A stretch of 32,749 nucleotides of DNA, from the NCBI GenBank assembly GCA_028824555.1, contig JAPPDJ010000116.1:1-32749 (forward strand), written 5' to 3'. The notes below the pieces were generated by a model, which was not told where the DNA came from, did not search any database, and worked only from the letters and a program-made list of their open reading frames with translations. Of the stretch, positions 6,359-29,204 are shown one piece after another. Both the position numbers and the translations under genes were made by a program. Position 1 is the first letter of the stretch; the number at the start of each line of letters is the position of its first letter. This DNA is from Gammaproteobacteria bacterium. GTDB taxonomy: Bacteria > Pseudomonadota > Gammaproteobacteria > Pseudomonadales > Azotimanducaceae.

Positions 6359-6380
6359 TCGCCCTGGCCCTGCAACTGAC

Positions 6381-6482
6381 GAGCGCTTCGGCAGTTGCTT
6401 CGCAACTGCGGGCCGCAGGGTTCGCGTGCGCTCACGACTCCAGCTTCGAGCCCGCGCCGTTTCTACGGCGCTGCCTCCTCGC
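6381..6482 (+). repeat. family A palindromic repeat between rng and maf
   Basis: This is a diverged full-length copy: GGCAGTTGC-TTC-GCAACTGC at about 6390-6408, a TTCGC-x-TGCGCTCAC middle segment, and GCGCCGTTTCTACGGCGC followed by CCTCC at about 6454-6480. The terminal CTAG has been lost. It lies in the only non-overlapping junction between mreC and yhdP, and its right part (6432-6482) is the coding sequence of the maf C-terminus. Confidence 0.8.
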
Positions 6483-7088
6483 GCCGCGAAAACGCCAGGT
6501 TTCCACGCCGAGTTCGGTGAGCAGCCGTTCGAGTTCGTCGAGCGGCAGTCCGACGACGGCGCTCGGGCTGCCCTCGATGGCGCGCACGAAGATCGCGCCC
6601 AATCCTTGCAGGCCGTAGCCACCGGCCTTGTCACGCGGCTCGCCGGTAGCCCAGTAGGCTGACATCTCGGCTTCAGGCACGTCGCGCAATGTCACGTGAG
6701 CTTCCGCCAAAGCTGTTCGGGACCGTTCCCCGGCAACCACCGCGACGCCAGTGAGCACCCGATGGCAACCGCCGGCGAGGGCGCGGAACATGGTGAGGAA
6801 GTCGTCCCGACCGGTAGGCTTGCCAAAGACATCGCCACTCGACGACACGACGACGGTGTCAGCGCCCACCACCACGACCCGACGATCGTCCTGGGCGGAG
6901 CACGCAGCCTCGCCGGCCACCGCACGGGCCTTGCCGAGCGCGAGCCGCAGCACGAGATCGCTGGGGGTCTCCCCGGGATGGGGCGACTCGTCGATATTCG
7001 CCGGCGAGATGCGAAAGTCGAATCCCGCCTGCCGCATCAGGTCTCGCCGGCGGGCCGAGGCGGAGGCAAGCACGATGTGCGTCTTCAT
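6432..7088 (-). CDS. maf: Maf-family nucleoside triphosphate pyrophosphatase with repeat-encoded tail
   Basis: A 218-residue protein from the ATG at 7088. It shows the Maf signature LASASARRRDLM (7-18), the ExP-type segment DESPHPGETP (33-42) and catalytic GADTVV with D77. Maf proteins hydrolyse non-canonical or excess nucleoside triphosphates to monophosphate and pyrophosphate; the position after mreBCD matches YhdE, which prefers dTTP and UTP. The start overlaps the mreD stop as ATGA (7088-7085). Typical proteins have about 195-200 residues. The last 16 residues here (about 203-218, arginine-rich) are translated from the family A repeat, so the native stop appears to have been replaced by readthrough into the repeat. 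Confidence 0.93.
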   Translation of the reverse strand: MKTHIVLASASARRRDLMRQAGFDFRISPANIDESPHPGETPSDLVLRLALGKARAVAGEAACSAQDDRRVVVVGADTVVVSSSGDVFGKPTGRDDFLTMFRALAGGCHRVLTGVAVVAGERSRTALAEAHVTLRDVPEAEMSAYWATGEPRDKAGGYGLQGLGAIFVRAIEGSPSAVVGLPLDELERLLTELGVETWRFRGARRQRRRNGAGSKLES

Positions 7089-7579
7089 CGCACCGGGAAC
7101 CGTCGTCGCAAGGCCGCAAGCGCCAGCGCCAAGAGCGGGAACAAGAGCGCAGTGACGCCAGGCGCGGCGAGGAACCACAGCGACGGCGTGGTGCCGAGCG
7201 CAAGCACCCGCGCCACCTCCCGCACGAGGGCTGCCAGGAGCAGTACCACCAAGGCGACGCCAGCCCGCTGCAGCACCGAGTAGAGACGAATGCGCTCGTG
7301 CAGGACATGGCCGCTGAAAACGGCTCCGGCCATGCAAGCGCCGTTGAGGCCCAGCGGGTCGCCAACGAGGACATCGACCACGAAACCAAGCAGCCAAGCC
7401 TCTACCAGCCCCGTCCGGTCGGAGGCGGCAAAGCTCCAATAGAACAACACGGCGACGATCCAGTCGGGGCGGAGGTGGCCGGCCCAGTCGGGAACCGAGG
7501 CGGGAAGATGCATCACGCTCGCCAGCATGGCGACTAGCAAAGTCGCGAAGATCAGCCAGCCGCCGCGGCGCGGACTCAT
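7085..7579 (-). CDS. mreD: rod shape-determining protein MreD
   Basis: A 164-residue hydrophobic protein with about five predicted membrane segments (for example around residues 8-25, 41-55, 60-72, 100-125 and 133-155). MreD is an inner-membrane component of the elongasome that links MreC to lateral-wall peptidoglycan synthesis. GLVEAWLLGFVVDVLVGDPLGLNG fits the MreD core where glycine and aspartate lie between membrane helices. It overlaps mreC upstream and maf downstream by 4 bp each, so the three are translationally coupled. Confidence 0.92.
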   Translation of the reverse strand: MSPRRGGWLIFATLLVAMLASVMHLPASVPDWAGHLRPDWIVAVLFYWSFAASDRTGLVEAWLLGFVVDVLVGDPLGLNGACMAGAVFSGHVLHERIRLYSVLQRAGVALVVLLLAALVREVARVLALGTTPSLWFLAAPGVTALLFPLLALALAALRRRFPVR

Positions 7580-8358
7580 GCGTCGCCCTCACGCACCACC
7601 AGCACGTGACGGGAACGGTCGAGGGCCGCGCTCGGCATCGCCTCCACCCGGGCAAAGTCGTCGCCGGGGTCGCGCACCACCGACTGCACGATGCCCACGG
7701 GATAGCCGAATGGAAAGCGTCCACCGAGACCGGAACTCACGAGCAGGTCGCCCGGAACGATGTCGGATGCAATGGGCACGCTCTCGAGCGTCAGGCGGTC
7801 GAACGCGCCGGTGCCGGCGGCGATGGAGCGCAGGTTGCTGCGATTAACGTGCACCGGCACCGCATGCGTGGTGTCGGAAATCAGCAGCACCCTGCTCGTG
7901 CTGGCCGCCGACTGCACCACCTGCCCGAATAATCCGCCGGAATCCACCACCGCCTGCCCTGTGCTGACGGAATCGCCGAGCCCCTTGTCGATCACCACCT
8001 CGTGCCGGGCGGGATTGGGCAGGATGGCGATGATCTCCGCCACCAGCACTCCCTCGGGCAGGCTTTCCGTAGAGCCAAGCAATGCTCGCAGACGGTCGTT
8101 TTCCGCCACAAGGCCCTGGTAGAGGCCCGCGGTTCGCCGGAGTTCAACGAGTTCCGTCTCGAGCCGTTCGACGTCGCCGCGCAATCGAGCATGGGTGGAG
8201 AACAGCCGATCCAGGCGGCTCCCCAAAAGGTAGGGGGACTCGGCAACGTAGTAGAGGGGGGAGACTCCAGCGGTCAGTGCGCCGCGCAAGGGCTTCAGGG
8301 TGGTTGTGCCACCGTCCACCGCGACCAGCGCGCCCGAAGCGACGCAAAGCCCGGCCAA
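7576..8358 (-). CDS. mreC: rod shape-determining protein MreC (start uncertain)
   Basis: A bitopic elongasome scaffold: N-terminal membrane segment, a coiled coil (about residues 55-90, with RLRGDVERLETELVELRR) and a periplasmic double beta-barrel (about 100-258). The coordinates use the TTG at 8358 (260 residues). No ribosome site precedes that TTG, and the frame is open upstream, encoding a basic KSLFVRRSISGY stretch that resembles normal MreC N-termini. The true start may therefore lie near 8391-8400 and use a rare codon such as CTG, ATT or ATC, since no ATG or GTG is in frame there. The stop overlaps the mreD ATG by 4 bp. Confidence 0.88.
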   Translation of the reverse strand: MAGLCVASGALVAVDGGTTTLKPLRGALTAGVSPLYYVAESPYLLGSRLDRLFSTHARLRGDVERLETELVELRRTAGLYQGLVAENDRLRALLGSTESLPEGVLVAEIIAILPNPARHEVVIDKGLGDSVSTGQAVVDSGGLFGQVVQSAASTSRVLLISDTTHAVPVHVNRSNLRSIAAGTGAFDRLTLESVPIASDIVPGDLLVSSGLGGRFPFGYPVGIVQSVVRDPGDDFARVEAMPSAALDRSRHVLVVREGDA

Positions 8359-13990: not shown

Positions 13991-14031
13991 GCGCGCCCTG
14001 ACGGGCGCGTCGGCAGTTGCTGCGCAACTGC
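13991..14031 (+). repeat. family A palindromic repeat, short copy
   Basis: Contains GCGCGCCC-TGAC-GGGCGCG followed by CGGCAGTTGC-TGC-GCAACTGC. The third hairpin module of the full-length copies is absent. Confidence 0.8.
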
Positions 14032-14039
14032 TTCCGTCC

Positions 14040-14062
14040 GGCGCATTCAAGACGGGCGGGGA
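14040..14062 (+). repeat. family B unit, first direct copy
   Basis: A 23-bp sequence beginning GGCGCATTCAAGACGGGC recurs exactly at 14196-14218. Here it runs into a GGGGC-...-GCCCC hairpin (GGGGACAAGCCCCGCCCC); at 14196 the following sequence has diverged. Confidence 0.8.
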
Positions 14063-14138
14063 CAAGCCCCGCCCCTACGAGGCTCGTGCCGAATCCACCG
14101 GTGCGTTTCAACGCGGACGGCGGTGGGTTCGCGCCTTC

Positions 14139-14169
14139 GGAGGGAGGGCGTCTCGCCCTCCATCGCGCC
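14139..14169 (+). repeat. family C half element
   Basis: This 31-bp stretch (GGAGGGAGGGCGTCTCGCC at its start, ATCGCGCC at its end) is identical to the reverse complement of the right arm at 27247-27277. A GCGC-rich module follows, as at 27230-27250, but no second arm is present. Confidence 0.85.
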
Positions 14170-14195
14170 GCAAGGCGCGCAATCCGGGGACGGTT

Positions 14196-14218
14196 GGCGC
14201 ATTCAAGACGGGCGGGGA
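14196..14218 (+). repeat. family B unit, second direct copy
   Basis: An exact repeat of 14040-14062, 156 bp downstream in the same orientation. It is followed by a CCTTGCCCCTACGGGCG tail. Confidence 0.8.
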
Positions 14219-14249
14219 GCCTTGCCCCTACGGGCGATGCGAACATGGC

Positions 14250-14301
14250 GGCCAGCAGTTCGCGCAGCGAACTGCCAACGCGCCCGCAAGGGTGCGCTAG
14301 C
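14250..14301 (-). repeat. family A palindromic repeat, inverted short copy
   Basis: On the minus strand it reads GCTAGCGCACCC, then a stem with the GCGCCC-GCAA-GGGTGC module, then GGCAGTTCG-CTG-CGCGAACTGCTGGCC. It is closely similar to the copy at 112-163 and carries the same terminal GCTAGC that served as IS481 target there. Confidence 0.8.
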
Positions 14302-14320: not shown

Positions 14321-14920
14321 TTGGCCAGCTACGTAGTAGGCATTGCCGGCGGCATCGGCAGCGGCAAAACCGCGGTTTCCGATCGCTTCGCCGGACACGG
14401 CATCGTCGTGGTGGATGCGGATGTCGCGTCCCGCGACGTGGTGCGCCCTGGCGAACCGGGTCTCGCGGCCATCGCCGAGCGCTACGGCGGCGCCGTCATC
14501 AACGGCAACGGCGAACTCAACCGGGCAGCCCTGCGCGAGCGCATCTTCCGCGACAGCGATGAGCGCCGCTGGGTGGAGCGGCTGCTGCATCCCGCCATCA
14601 ACCGTCTCATCGCCGAGCGCCTCGCCGCCGCCACGTCGCCCTACGCACTGCTGGTGAACCCCCTCATGCGGGCCCGCGACGCCCGTGCCCACCGCATCCT
14701 CGTGGTGGACGTGTCAGAAGAGGTGCAGGTTGCACGCACCATCGCCAGAGACAGCGTGGACGAAGAGCAGGCGCGAGCCATCATCGCCAGCCAACTTCCC
14801 CGCAGCGAGCGACTCGCTTTCGCCGACGACGTGATCGTCAACGACGGCACCGTCGACGAACTCGACGGCCCCGTCAAGAATCTGCACGCCCAGTATCTGG
14901 AGCTCGCCAATGGCGCATGA
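14321..14920 (+). CDS. coaE: dephospho-CoA kinase
   Basis: 199 residues from a TTG at 14321; GGAG (14312-14315) lies 5 nt upstream and the product then begins with the normal [16 protein letters not shown]. The P-loop is GGIGSGKT (about residues 10-17), followed by [12 protein letters not shown]. It catalyses the last step of coenzyme A synthesis. A longer open frame reaches back through the repeats but would add non-homologous residues. It overlaps yacG by 11 bp. The LID region ([26 protein letters not shown]) and the RD pair ([15 protein letters not shown]) look intact. Confidence 0.94.
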
Positions 14921-15137
14921 CACGGCCCGCATCGTCGTCTGCCCAACTTGCTCGAAGCCGGTCAAGTGGACGCCAGCCAACCCGTTCCGGCCATTCTGCT
15001 CGGAACGTTGCCGACTGATCGACTTCGGCGCCTGGGCCAGCGAAAGCCACGTCATCCCCGGCGACCCGGTCTATGACGACATCGACTCCGAAGACCTCGA
15101 GCGGCAGCGCGGCGATCTCGGAGACGATTTCGCTTGA
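14910..15137 (+). CDS. yacG: DNA gyrase inhibitor YacG, zinc protein
   Basis: 75 residues. The zinc site is C11-x2-C14 and C30-x3-C34 (VVCPTC ... [17 protein letters not shown]), the exact YacG pattern, followed by an acidic tail. In E. coli YacG binds GyrB and inhibits gyrase. The start overlaps the end of coaE by 11 bp, and the coaE-yacG order is the usual one. Confidence 0.94.
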
Positions 15138-15176
15138 CCCGCAAGGGCGCTCAGCCGAACGCAAGGCAAGACTGCC

Positions 15177-17699
15177 ATGCACCGAACGCTCCCAACCGAT
15201 AGCGCGCCCTATCGGGCGCGTTGGCAGTTCGCTACGCGAACTGCTGGCCTTCGTGCTCGCATTCGCTCGCAGCTACGGCTAGGAGCCACCGCCGTTTCTA
15301 CGGCAGAGGCTCCTAGCGTCGCAAGACATCGCCCTTCTGACGCCGCCGCCCCGGCACGCCTATCGCGCTCCCCGAAACTGCTGGCTCTTCTCCTGCAATG
15401 CCTTGTGCCGGCGGTGCTCGCCAGCGAAGGCGACTTGGCAGCGGCGCTGTGGTCGCACGATCCCGGCCGCGGCGTCTGCGGAGGCTACTCGGCCAAGCCG
15501 CTTGCGAGTCCTGACGCGCCCTTGCGCGAACAAGCCACGGTTGCCACGGCAGCCAGCCTCTCTCGCCTCGGCCTCTTGACCACTCTGCGCGGCAATGTGC
15601 TCGTTCGTCAGGGAGGCCGAGAACTGCGCGCACCAGCCCTCACCCTCGACGAGGAGGCACAGACTGCCCGCGCCGAGGGGGTCGCGGAGCTGCGCGACGC
15701 GGCCCTCCACCTGCGCGGCAAGAACCTCGAACTCGCCATGCGGGACGACTCCGCCTCCCTCGAACAAGCCGAGTTCGTCATGCTTGAGAGCCAGATGCGC
15801 GGCACCGCCGACAGTCTCGAGAAGCAAGGTGCCGGGCTCAGGCTCACCAACACCTCCCTCACCGGCTGCCCGCCCGGCCACGACGGCTGGATGATCCGCG
15901 CCGACCGCATCGAGATCGACCAAGACGAGACCTTCGCCACCGCCACGGACGCCCAGGTGCGCGTCGGTGGCATGCCCGTGTTCCGAGCGCCCTATCTGCG
16001 CTTCCCCGTCAGCGAGAGGCGCGTCTCTGGATTCCTCTTTCCCGAACTCAGCCACGGCGGCGTCAGCGGCATCGAAGTGGGCCTCCCCTACTATCTCAAC
16101 CTCGCGCCCAACTACGACGCAACGCTCATCCCGCGCCTGATGACCCGCCGCGGCACCGGCATCGACGGCGAATTCCGCCACAAGGCCCCGGGCAGCGACA
16201 CCGAGGTGCGCACCGCCTGGCTCGGCAACGACGAGCAGTACAACGGCGTGCTCTCACGCCGCGACTGGCTGCGCGCCGGCAACGAAGGCGTGACGAGCTT
16301 CGACCCAGCCGATCGTTGGCTCACCAGACTTGACCATCAAGGACAATTCGGTGCCTTCAGCACGCTCGTCAACTACGCCAAGGCGAGCGACCGCGACTAC
16401 CTCGCCGATTTCGGCTACGGCGCTGGCCCCGACCTCGAGTTCGCCAGCCAAGTGACCCTGCCGAGCCGCGCCGAGGCGCGCTACCGCCGCGGTGGCTGGG
16501 ACGCACGAGTCTGGGCCCAGAGCTTCCAGCCCCTCACGGAACGGCCAGCGCCCTGGCGCCGCCTACCCGAAGCAAACGTGGTGTATCGCGGCCAGTTGGC
16601 CGGCCCATTGGAATGGTCGCTGGCGAGCGTCTGGTCCTGGTTCGACCGCGACGATGCCGACCTCGCCGCGCCGTCTCTCGCCGGCCGTCGCCTGCACGTC
16701 GAACCCGGCGCCCGGTTGCGGCTCGCCCGCCCGTTCGGATTCTTGACCCTGGGCGCTGCCTACCGCTACACCGAGTGGGACCTCGATCACGCCCGCCGCG
16801 ACGCCACGCCGCACCGCGCCCTCGCCCGCGCCCGCATCGACGGCGGCCTTTTCTTTGAGCGCCCGCTCGGCGATGGCTGGATACAGACCCTGGAACCGCG
16901 AGTCGCCTACTTCCGCCAGGAATACGCCGAACAGGACCATCTGCCGAGGTTCGACGCCGCCGCTCTCACCTTCGGCTACGACCAACTGTTCCGCACCGAC
17001 CGCTTCGCGGGCCTGGACCGCATCGGCGATGCGCATCACGTTTCCGCCGGGGTGGTAAGTCGCATGCTCCAGGCCGAACGCGGCGTCGAGCGCCTCGTCG
17101 CCCGCGTCGGCGCCATCGCTTGGCTCGATGACCGCCGTGTGACGCTGAACGGCAAACCCGGCGCAAACGAAACCCGCCCCGCCGCCTTCGCCGGCGACAT
17201 GACCGGCCACATCGGCCCCGTGCGCATCACCGGCACCGCTGCCTGGGACACCGACGGCCGCCGCCTCGACGAAGCTGGCCTCGTTGCCATGACCCGCTCC
17301 GAGTCCGGCCGGATCATGAGTTTCGGCTATCGCCGCCGCGCCGCCATCGACGTGGACCAGACCGACATCGGCATCTACGCCCCCGTCACCCATCGCCTCA
17401 GCATCTTCGGCCGATGGAACCATGACTGGCAAAACGGTCAAATGGTGGAAGGATTCGCCGGCTTTGGCTGGCGCGGCTGCTGCGTCGAAGTGAAACTGCT
17501 GTGGCGGCGCTTGATCGACGCCCCAAGACACCCATCCTTCGGCAACGCGGGAAACCCCCTCCAAGCCACCGGAGCCCCCGATGCAACGCCAGAAGACCGA
17601 GTGATGCTCCAAGTGTCCTTGAGCGGCCTCGCCGGCTTCGGCCGCCGCATAGAGTCGCACTTGGAACGCGGCGTCCGAGGCTACCGCCGCACGCCATAG
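15177..17699 (+). CDS. lptD: LPS-assembly outer-membrane protein LptD with repeat-encoded N-terminal extension
   Basis: An 840-residue outer-membrane beta-barrel that, with LptE, inserts lipopolysaccharide into the outer leaflet. The OstA-like periplasmic domain (about 120-250) includes LTGCPPGHDGWMI; the barrel follows with GFLFPELSHGGVSGIEVGLP and LIPRLMTRRGTGIDGE. The four disulfide cysteines appear conserved: C101, C231 and the C-terminal pair C768-C769. The signal-peptide core (KLLALLLQCLVPAVLA) lies unusually far in, at about 67-82. Residues 8-47 are encoded by a family A repeat. No ATG, GTG or TTG occurs in frame between the repeat and the signal core, so the ATG at 15177, before the repeat, is the only standard start. 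Confidence 0.93.
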   Translation: MHRTLPTDSAPYRARWQFATRTAGLRARIRSQLRLGATAVSTAEAPSVARHRPSDAAAPARLSRSPKLLALLLQCLVPAVLASEGDLAAALWSHDPGRGVCGGYSAKPLASPDAPLREQATVATAASLSRLGLLTTLRGNVLVRQGGRELRAPALTLDEEAQTARAEGVAELRDAALHLRGKNLELAMRDDSASLEQAEFVMLESQMRGTADSLEKQGAGLRLTNTSLTGCPPGHDGWMIRADRIEIDQDETFATATDAQVRVGGMPVFRAPYLRFPVSERRVSGFLFPELSHGGVSGIEVGLPYYLNLAPNYDATLIPRLMTRRGTGIDGEFRHKAPGSDTEVRTAWLGNDEQYNGVLSRRDWLRAGNEGVTSFDPADRWLTRLDHQGQFGAFSTLVNYAKASDRDYLADFGYGAGPDLEFASQVTLPSRAEARYRRGGWDARVWAQSFQPLTERPAPWRRLPEANVVYRGQLAGPLEWSLASVWSWFDRDDADLAAPSLAGRRLHVEPGARLRLARPFGFLTLGAAYRYTEWDLDHARRDATPHRALARARIDGGLFFERPLGDGWIQTLEPRVAYFRQEYAEQDHLPRFDAAALTFGYDQLFRTDRFAGLDRIGDAHHVSAGVVSRMLQAERGVERLVARVGAIAWLDDRRVTLNGKPGANETRPAAFAGDMTGHIGPVRITGTAAWDTDGRRLDEAGLVAMTRSESGRIMSFGYRRRAAIDVDQTDIGIYAPVTHRLSIFGRWNHDWQNGQMVEGFAGFGWRGCCVEVKLLWRRLIDAPRHPSFGNAGNPLQATGAPDATPEDRVMLQVSLSGLAGFGRRIESHLERGVRGYRRTP
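15200..15317 (+). repeat. family A palindromic repeat inside the lptD reading frame
   Basis: A full-length copy: GCGCGCCC-TATC-GGGCGCG, GGCAGTTCG-CTA-CGCGAACTGC, a TTCGCTCGC middle segment, then CTAGGAGCC (about 15279-15287) paired with GGCTCCTAG (about 15308-15316) around an inner GCCGT/ACGGC stem. It is open in the lptD frame along its whole length. Confidence 0.88.
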
Positions 17700-22373: not shown

Positions 22374-23075
22374 ATGCCCCAGCAGCCAAGCGCCGCCGCG
22401 GTCTTGAACGACCTAGGCGCGGAGAAGGAAGAAATGGAAATCAGAGAGATGTTCGAGACCCTGCGCGCCGACATGGCGGCCTCGGAGGAGCGCACGAGCG
22501 AGCGTTTCCAGGAGGTCCGGAATGAGATCGTGGCGTCAGAGCAGCGCACCGGCGCCACGATTGCAGCCGTGGCGCGGCGCACGGACGAGCGCCTTCAGGA
22601 GGTCCGGGATGAGATCGCCGCCGTGGAGCAGCGCACGAACGAGCGCTTCCAGGAGGTCCGGAATGAGATCGTCGCGTCGGAGCAGCGCACCGGCGCCACG
22701 ATTGCAGCCGTGGCGCGGCGCACGGACGAGCGCTTTCAGGAGGTCCGGGATGAGATCGCCGCCTCGGAGCAGCGCACCGGCGCCACGATTGCAGCCGTGG
22801 AGCAGCGCACCGGCGCCACGACTGCAGCCGTGGAGCAGCGCACCGGCGCCTCGCTCGAAGCCGTGGAACAGCGCACAAATGAGCGCTTTCAGGAAGTGCG
22901 AGAGGACATCAGGGAAGTCCGCGCGCATGTTGACACGAGTGCCGCAGACCTGCGTGAGGAAATCCGTGCCAACCGCCTCTTCAAGAACAGCCGCCTCGGC
23001 CTCGCCGTGGCGATCGTCGTCGGCACTGCGGTGGTCGGCACCTTCGTCCTACAGCTCTTGGACGCCATCTTCTGA
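22374..23075 (+). CDS. tail-anchored repeat coiled-coil protein
   Basis: 233 residues. After a short N-terminus, residues 22-185 are nearly continuous charged coiled coil built from repeated blocks of the types EQRTGATIAAV and RTDERFQEVRDEIA. The block length is 11 residues in places (33-bp DNA periods at 22767, 22800 and 22833) and 47 residues (141 bp) between 22539 and 22680, so hendecad packing is likely. The C-terminus ends in a hydrophobic segment (about 208-230, GLAVAIVVGTAVVGTFVLQLL) and almost nothing after it, indicating a tail anchor. The layout resembles the DUF1640/CCDC90 (MCUR1-like) group and Borrelia Bdr proteins; homology is not proven. The GGAAGAGG upstream is a fair ribosome site. 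Function unknown. Confidence 0.85.
   Translation: MPQQPSAAAVLNDLGAEKEEMEIREMFETLRADMAASEERTSERFQEVRNEIVASEQRTGATIAAVARRTDERLQEVRDEIAAVEQRTNERFQEVRNEIVASEQRTGATIAAVARRTDERFQEVRDEIAASEQRTGATIAAVEQRTGATTAAVEQRTGASLEAVEQRTNERFQEVREDIREVRAHVDTSAADLREEIRANRLFKNSRLGLAVAIVVGTAVVGTFVLQLLDAIF
22536..22868 (+). repeat. in-frame coding tandem repeats (141-, 87- and 33-bp spacing)
   Basis: Copies of GAGCAGCGCACCGGCGCC begin at 22539, 22680, 22767, 22800 and 22833. All spacings are multiples of 3 and the last two are exactly 33 bp. Near-identity of the copies at DNA level suggests recent expansion by slippage or unequal crossing-over. Confidence 0.9.
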
Positions 23076-29098: not shown

Positions 29099-29204
29099 CT
29101 TGGAGGGAAGGCATTCTGCCTTCCCTATACGCCGACAGGCGTTTTCGACAACGGACGGCGCGCCTGACGGCGCGCAGGGGAAGGCAGAATGCCTTCCCTC
29201 CAAG
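29099..29204. repeat. perfect long inverted repeat, family C relative (106 bp)
   Basis: Two 27-bp arms (29099-29125 and 29178-29204; CTTGGAGGGAAGGCATTCTG at the outer end) are exact reverse complements. The interior holds a GGCGCGCC-TGA-CGGCGCGC module (about 29156-29175) matching the family A and C central module. It ends 24 bp from the stop of the truncated AMP-binding gene. The shape is that of a MITE-like or mobile hairpin element. Confidence 0.92.

Follow-up and report, generated by a model that had tools for sequence, protein, structure and literature searches.

In an uncultured gammaproteobacterium of the Azotimanducaceae, a palindromic repeat appears to have been inserted into the essential gene lptD, downstream of an ATG that was already there and ahead of the signal-peptide hydrophobic core, with this ATG (position 15177) being used as start codon and the repeat providing most of the signal-peptide n-region, a reading to which we assign a probability of roughly 0.7. 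Positions given without a locus label refer to the window, i.e., the complete stretch of 32,749 nucleotides that was analysed (contig JAPPDJ010000116.1 of assembly GCA_028824555.1). The proposed course of events begins with a dispersed, modular palindromic repeat, which would presumably have entered the start of lptD, probably after the split from the sister genome G014, and which would have left the gene usable because 38 open codons were added. The ribosome would initiate at ATG 15177 and read through the repeat, which would make up most of an arginine-rich n-region of 67 residues. Such a long basic n-region would be accepted by the Sec route, as passages in PMC2805444 describe for the long signal peptides of autotransporters, and signal peptidase should remove the repeat-coded part along with the signal peptide, so that mature LptD would be unchanged. 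The repeat family, the open frames and the sister comparisons underlying this proposal are directly visible in the DNA.

The gene was assigned by profile searches, in which its product matched PF04453 (E 1.4e-59, residues 379-729) and PF03968 (E 1.9e-6, residues 134-251). It is present as a single copy in the genome, comprises the LptD and LptD_N domains as well as a signal-peptide core, and is found in the gene order prepilin peptidase-coaE-yacG-lptD-surA. From the upstream stop to the signal-peptide core, the lptD frame contains no ATG, GTG or TTG apart from ATG 15177. The initial annotation had claimed that the repeat is open in the lptD frame upstream of the core and that no such codon lies between the two; both claims are borne out by the coordinates of ORF, repeat and core (Table 1), as the next in-frame standard starts follow 28, 31 and 38 codons beyond the repeat end and, thus, within or past the core. 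In-frame ATT, ATC and ATA are likewise absent between repeat and core; an in-frame ATT does occur as codon 29, located within the repeat, and with this codon as start the repeat DNA would be translated anyway. The 67 residues preceding the core contain 13 K/R and 3 D/E, and their best 13-residue hydropathy mean is 0.72 vs. 2.48 in the core. Cleavage presumably takes place at the core's end, a site which we assigned by the -3/-1 rule. The insert had been described as preceding a signal sequence; rather than standing apart from the latter, it lengthens the n-region of the signal peptide itself and should go at cleavage. Outside the inserted part, lptD is, judging from its substitutions relative to G014 over 15411-17699 (dN 0.039, dS 0.270, dN/dS ~0.14), under purifying selection.

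Table 1 Features of the lptD region and of repeat-bearing genes elsewhere in the same genome and in G003
Feature	Position	Strand	Remarks
yacG, 5' of lptD	14910..15137	+	Stop codon 39 nt before lptD ATG
lptD ORF	15177-17699	+	ATG start, 840 aa; LptD by PF04453 and PF03968
lptD ATG and first 9 codons (MHRTLPTDS)	15177..15203	+	
Palindromic repeat element	15200-15318	+	119 bp, three hairpins; TAGCG at either end
Extra DNA relative to apparently empty site in G014	15205-15318	+	114 bp = 38 codons = residues 10-47
Hairpin A of element	15201..15222	+	By fold
Hairpin B of element	15223..15245	+	By fold
Hairpin C of element	15278..15317	+	By fold
Remaining signal-peptide n-region (VARHRPSDAAAPARLSRSPK)	15319..15377	+	In-frame ATG/GTG/TTG absent
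Signal-peptide hydrophobic core LLALLLQCLVPAVLA	15378..15422	+	Residues 68-82, then SEGD (expected cleavage site); core by hydropathy
Mature LptD with LptD_N and LptD domains	15423..17699	+	By domain matches
rnc (RNase III domains)	L090:1000-1746	-	First about 20 residues and only standard start apparently from repeat
cpdA-like phosphoesterase gene	L008:645-1649	-	115-bp repeat insertion vs. G014
[2Fe-2S]/molybdopterin oxidoreductase ORF	L116:3-2240	-	Fer2, Fer2_2 and molybdopterin-binding domains; cut by locus end
G003 lptD, other palindromic repeat in signal-peptide n-region	L016:1282-1466		144 bp in frame

The inserted DNA codes for residues 10-47 of LptD (APYRARWQFATRTAGLRARIRSQLRLGATAVSTAEAPS) and belongs to a dispersed family. 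That the repeat is genuine and beyond chance is confirmed by at least 44 matches in its own genome to the query 15180-15340, including the query itself and a few short second matches (40 of 320 first-look candidates were scored). The same query gave 44 matches in G014 and 41 in the related genome G009. Altogether, the lptD repeat was matched in 11 of 16 genomes of the genus, eight of which, besides the three already named, have 1 to 34 matches, mostly short among the matches listed. With a variant copy as query, 56 matches were obtained, ten of them at places new relative to the first query. The first two hairpins are common to most listed copies and the third is variable; the reverse reading of the repeat carries ATGCGAGC in 13 of the 21 near-full-length copies. 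Of the extent initially proposed for the element (15200-15317), the start stands and the end has to be moved to 15318. The motif TAGCG is present at both element ends in the genome under study and once in G014, yet many listed copies themselves bear such ends.

The window also holds further repetitive DNA. The last residues of a Maf-like protein (minus-strand ORF 6432-7724) are encoded by a degenerate copy of the family (6380-6487); the ORF adjoins an RNase G-like gene (names by eye), and this repeat DNA is common to the genome under study and G014. About 306 bp with two repeat pieces (13994-14300), lying between the prepilin peptidase gene and coaE, are absent from G014. Direct repeats spaced 33, 54, 87 and 141 bp occur within about 460 bp (22451-22910), and for the surrounding segment 19933-23283 the G014 contig showed no counterpart at the applied threshold. 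Finally, an inverted repeat (29099-29204) with perfectly matching 27-bp arms, 52 nt apart, differs in sequence from the lptD element.

The lptD gene of G014 is 93% identical and shares the upstream ATG, with MHRMLPGYS-VAKRPP... vs. MHRTLPTDS in the genome under study. It displays TAGCGTCGCAA... once where the latter has TAGCG followed by 114 bp, and across and after this TAGCG junction 24 of 30 bases of the DNA beyond the insertion match. The net difference at the 5' end amounts to 102 bp, in frame (91 vs. 57 open codons). Additionally, QRRFLRRSLLA at the core of G014 LptD is encoded by a 32-bp piece that shares 97% identity with the right end of a family copy. Since G014 thus has a repeat fragment of its own nearby, an alignment with other gap costs paired G014 DNA with the right end of the other genome's repeat, leaving no empty site; hence, an empty site in G014 is likely but uncertain. 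Two later starts are possible in G014 lptD (ATG +3 codons, TTG +15 codons), so that the ancestral gene may have started elsewhere than at ATG 15177. The comparison of relatives at the lptD 5' end, which the initial annotation had called for, revealed in G014 no case of the same repeat with a conserved downstream start, although the G014 TTG could serve.

The alternative that survives best is a repeat ancestral to both genomes, of which G014 would have lost most and kept the 32-bp right-end piece. The high identity of this piece to a family copy and the one alignment that pairs it with the element in the genome under study speak for this scenario. The piece lies, however, downstream of the DNA that matches the sequence beyond the insertion, and therefore piece and repeat seem to be at different positions. 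Hence, we consider an ancestral repeat rather unlikely; the junction comparison likewise makes an lptD copy common to both genomes by descent less likely than separate events.

An insertion into the n-region, as favoured here, gains from what is seen in other relatives. The lptD 5' end is visible in 15 of the 16 genus genomes, including the one under study (the G009 contig starts inside the gene), and in four of these 15 repeat DNA is found in frame there, namely in the genome under study, G014, G003 and G002; the remaining 11 were inspected only visually. G003 lptD possesses 144 bp more than that of G010, inserted between a common TTG and the core, and the source repeat gave 46 matches in G003, itself included. 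In G002, a third repeat accounts for 25 additional residues that directly follow the signal peptide, beyond the expected cleavage site; 15 other matches to the insert DNA were found in this genome, of which 13 measure 24-31 bp and two 58-62 bp. For the G003/G002 group, TTG was assumed to be the lptD start. Visual inspection of surA, a control gene on the same loci, showed no repeat at its start in the frames covered, with G004 and G002 not assessable. As to the DNA further upstream, lptD follows yacG in the genome under study and in G014 (14910-15177), and in several other genus genomes an opposite-strand phosphotransferase-like gene (by eye) is located upstream of lptD. A rearrangement near repeats is a possible cause of this differing upstream DNA.

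Several other genes of the same genome carry the repeat at their 5' end. In rnc of this genome and of G009, the one standard start upstream of the domain is an ATG inside the repeat (MRARRPAVRAANCQRAREGALGRLERRIGH...), and in G014 rnc part of the repeat is gone, RPAVRAANCQRARKGAL still following GTG codons in an unchanged frame. Judging from the reading frames, the repeat thus appears to supply the RNase III N-terminus. The 115-bp insertion in the cpdA-like gene is clean relative to G014, but the sister ATG is thereby out of frame and the sister frame is not kept; consequently, initiation must take place at an ATG within the repeat or at a GTG downstream of it. In a speE-like gene, the arrangement MAQKTR-[repeat]-AALRWSLASLLLPLFF contrasts with MVQRTRFGPPKSALRWSLAMLLL in G009; its n-region is 69 bp longer than in both sisters with the frame kept, and a TTG after the repeat represents an alternative start. 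The N-termini of CpdA and the speE-like protein are probably repeat-supplied as well. Standard starts are absent between repeat and conserved part in lptD and rnc; for cpdA and the speE-like gene, the repeat is followed within about three codons by a GTG or TTG.

A different situation is encountered in the [2Fe-2S]/molybdopterin oxidoreductase ORF. Its Fer2_2 domain contains 14 residues more than that of G014, within a stretch (PQQFAPANCRRARKGA) resembling the repeat-coded part of rnc; G009 reads QQFAPANCRRARK at the insertion place, close to a contig end. Moreover, the [2Fe-2S] and molybdopterin parts are joined in one open frame by repeat-like linkers in the genome under study and in G014, the linkers being different; in G008 and G004, by contrast, each part has its own gene and the two genes differ in frame. 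The fusion is common to the genome under study and G014, and the Fer2_2 loop is without counterpart in the latter. The repeat therefore seems to form a 14-residue loop in the [2Fe-2S] domain and to connect two oxidoreductase subunits as a fusion linker; among the cases found, this ORF comes closest to an insertion of the Rickettsia type and to a gene fusion brought about by a repeat.

Placement of the family relative to genes was assessed with a codon score trained on 11 long ORFs of the window. In a control with five gene stretches outside the training set (lptD of G014 and G013 as well as rnc, cpdA and the speE-like gene of the genome under study), 91 of 97 segments of 249 nt scored at least 0.15. 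In a first placement test with strict limits, both flanks were coding in one of 47 rows and in none of them in one frame, a test of little power in which short pieces were omitted and some repeat bounds were too short. The second test covered part of the family, i.e., 62 merged repeat stretches, 55 of them with 200 nt on either side; 60 open codons on either side were found for 22 frames, one of which scored at least 0.05 on both flanks. The latter lies in the [2Fe-2S]/molybdopterin gene, which also contains a second, short repeat stretch; the notion that no copy resides inside a coding frame was rejected on this account. Immediately downstream of 15 of the 62 stretches a well-scoring ORF is found (16 ORFs). 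Most scanned copies thus look intergenic on this score, and coding is not typical of the family, since only one of the 62 stretches has one long coding-like open frame across both flanks.

This mostly intergenic placement is also what lends some weight to a further alternative, according to which the repeat is leader DNA only, with lptD starting at a non-standard codon (e.g., CTG at the core) and the open frame having arisen by chance. One of the six orientation/phase choices of the lptD element is stop-free and two others are open up to the last two codons; across the 21 near-full-length copies, nine of 126 choices combine an open frame with a length divisible by three, so a chance fit is not negligible. 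Furthermore, the Shine-Dalgarno-like match upstream of ATG 15177, an AAGG, is weak. A CTG start, however, would result in a signal peptide without positive n-region, and in-frame ATT, ATC and ATA are lacking between repeat and core. At the same time, ATG and frame are the same in G014 despite different intervening DNA, rnc of two genomes shows no standard start between repeat and domain either, and the repeats in G002 lptD and in the Fer2_2 domain lie beyond the start region. We therefore regard the leader-DNA explanation as improbable. Of the two options named in the initial annotation, an arginine-rich pre-sequence is favoured by the G014 ATG without insertion, the 38 whole codons and the parallels in other genes and relatives, and a non-standard start is less favoured. 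Random insertion would usually break lptD; the observed case is of the kind expected to remain after selection acting on an essential gene. An assembly or base error, i.e., a real start codon downstream of the repeat or a mis-joined repeat copy, might be suspected in a genome of 182 contigs with several repeat copies at contig ends, but is highly improbable given that both flanks match one sister contig in conserved order, that among the matches listed no other one in this genome is >95% identical to the lptD copy, and that in-frame repeat DNA recurs at the lptD start in four genomes.

With the insertion into the n-region retained as preferred reading, the collected cases are best read as a wider habit, in which mostly intergenic repeats would sometimes be kept in frame by genes as N-termini, an in-domain loop and a fusion linker. 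Whether several unrelated palindromic repeat families provide a steady source of new coding sequence in this genus (n-regions and start codons of housekeeping and exported proteins, in-domain loops and fusion linkers), with the cleaved signal peptide as safe landing site, we would put at even odds; signal-peptide n-regions could absorb foreign codons because they are cut away. According to passages of a recent review (PMC10969869), the contribution of translated palindromic repeats to protein evolution is unexplored. Such repeats were known from Rickettsia, Wolbachia and an archaeon, and the present cases concern an uncultured gammaproteobacterial genus and include essential LptD and RNase III. 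In-frame repeats in these two proteins, with sister genomes at hand, would make tolerance testable. For annotation, they are a warning that start codons in repeat-rich genomes can be inside or before repeats. More generally, the apparent capture of repeats in genes illustrates how repetitive DNA may become protein.

Among known systems, REP/BIME elements are high-copy, hairpin-rich, mostly extragenic and modular. The present repeat is likewise all of these and differs by being about 119 bp long with three hairpins. A RAYT-driven REP system was rejected, as the genome has one Y1_Tnp (PF01797) match and no significant repeat copy is present in the 3.2-kb locus of this sole match. With the extended signal peptide region of autotransporters, around 10% of which, among those known, have signal sequences of >50 residues according to parts of PMC2805444, the LptD extension shares a long, positively charged n-region; in contrast, this extension is repeat-derived and is absent from the sister. 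In titles, abstract starts and passages of literature on palindromic repeats with signal peptides or in sponge symbionts, no repeat in a signal-peptide n-region was found, which is no proof of absence. Further comparable systems are MITEs such as QMITE1/2 of Coxiella burnetii and intragenic ERIC elements, small elements located chiefly between genes that occasionally provide the ends of proteins, e.g., the MITE-coded 33 C-terminal residues of EnhC in Coxiella (passages of PMC5896051 and PMC10969869). The present family resembles both in this respect, but here N-termini are concerned, including signal-peptide n-regions, and neither a transposase nor a target duplication is established.

Another comparison is offered by RPE and similar elements in Rickettsia, Wolbachia and Methanocaldococcus jannaschii, which the relevant passages describe as palindromic, 100-150 bp in size, present in many copies and in frame in housekeeping genes (PMC10969869, PMC5656822, PMC2996958). 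In-frame elements in Wolbachia and Methanocaldococcus as well as tandem palindromic coding repeats of membrane proteins are mentioned in parts of PMC2996958. The present repeat is also multi-copy, palindromic and of about the 100-150 bp size class, and it keeps the host frame open in lptD, rnc, the speE-like gene, the Fer2_2 loop and the subunit linker, though not in cpdA. In Rickettsia, nearly half of the first-reported palindromic elements were located inside ORFs, according to a passage in PMC10969869; in contrast, such a large in-gene share was not observed here (one of 62 stretches), and the clearest in-frame cases are N-termini. The comparison with Rickettsia RPEs drawn initially thus holds in effect, also for the mid-domain insertion in Fer2_2, but not for placement, as few scanned copies are inside genes. 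For that reason, the family is not filed with the RPEs and is likened to them by effect rather than by sequence; by analogy, the repeat can be said to function like an RPE in the genes that it affects.
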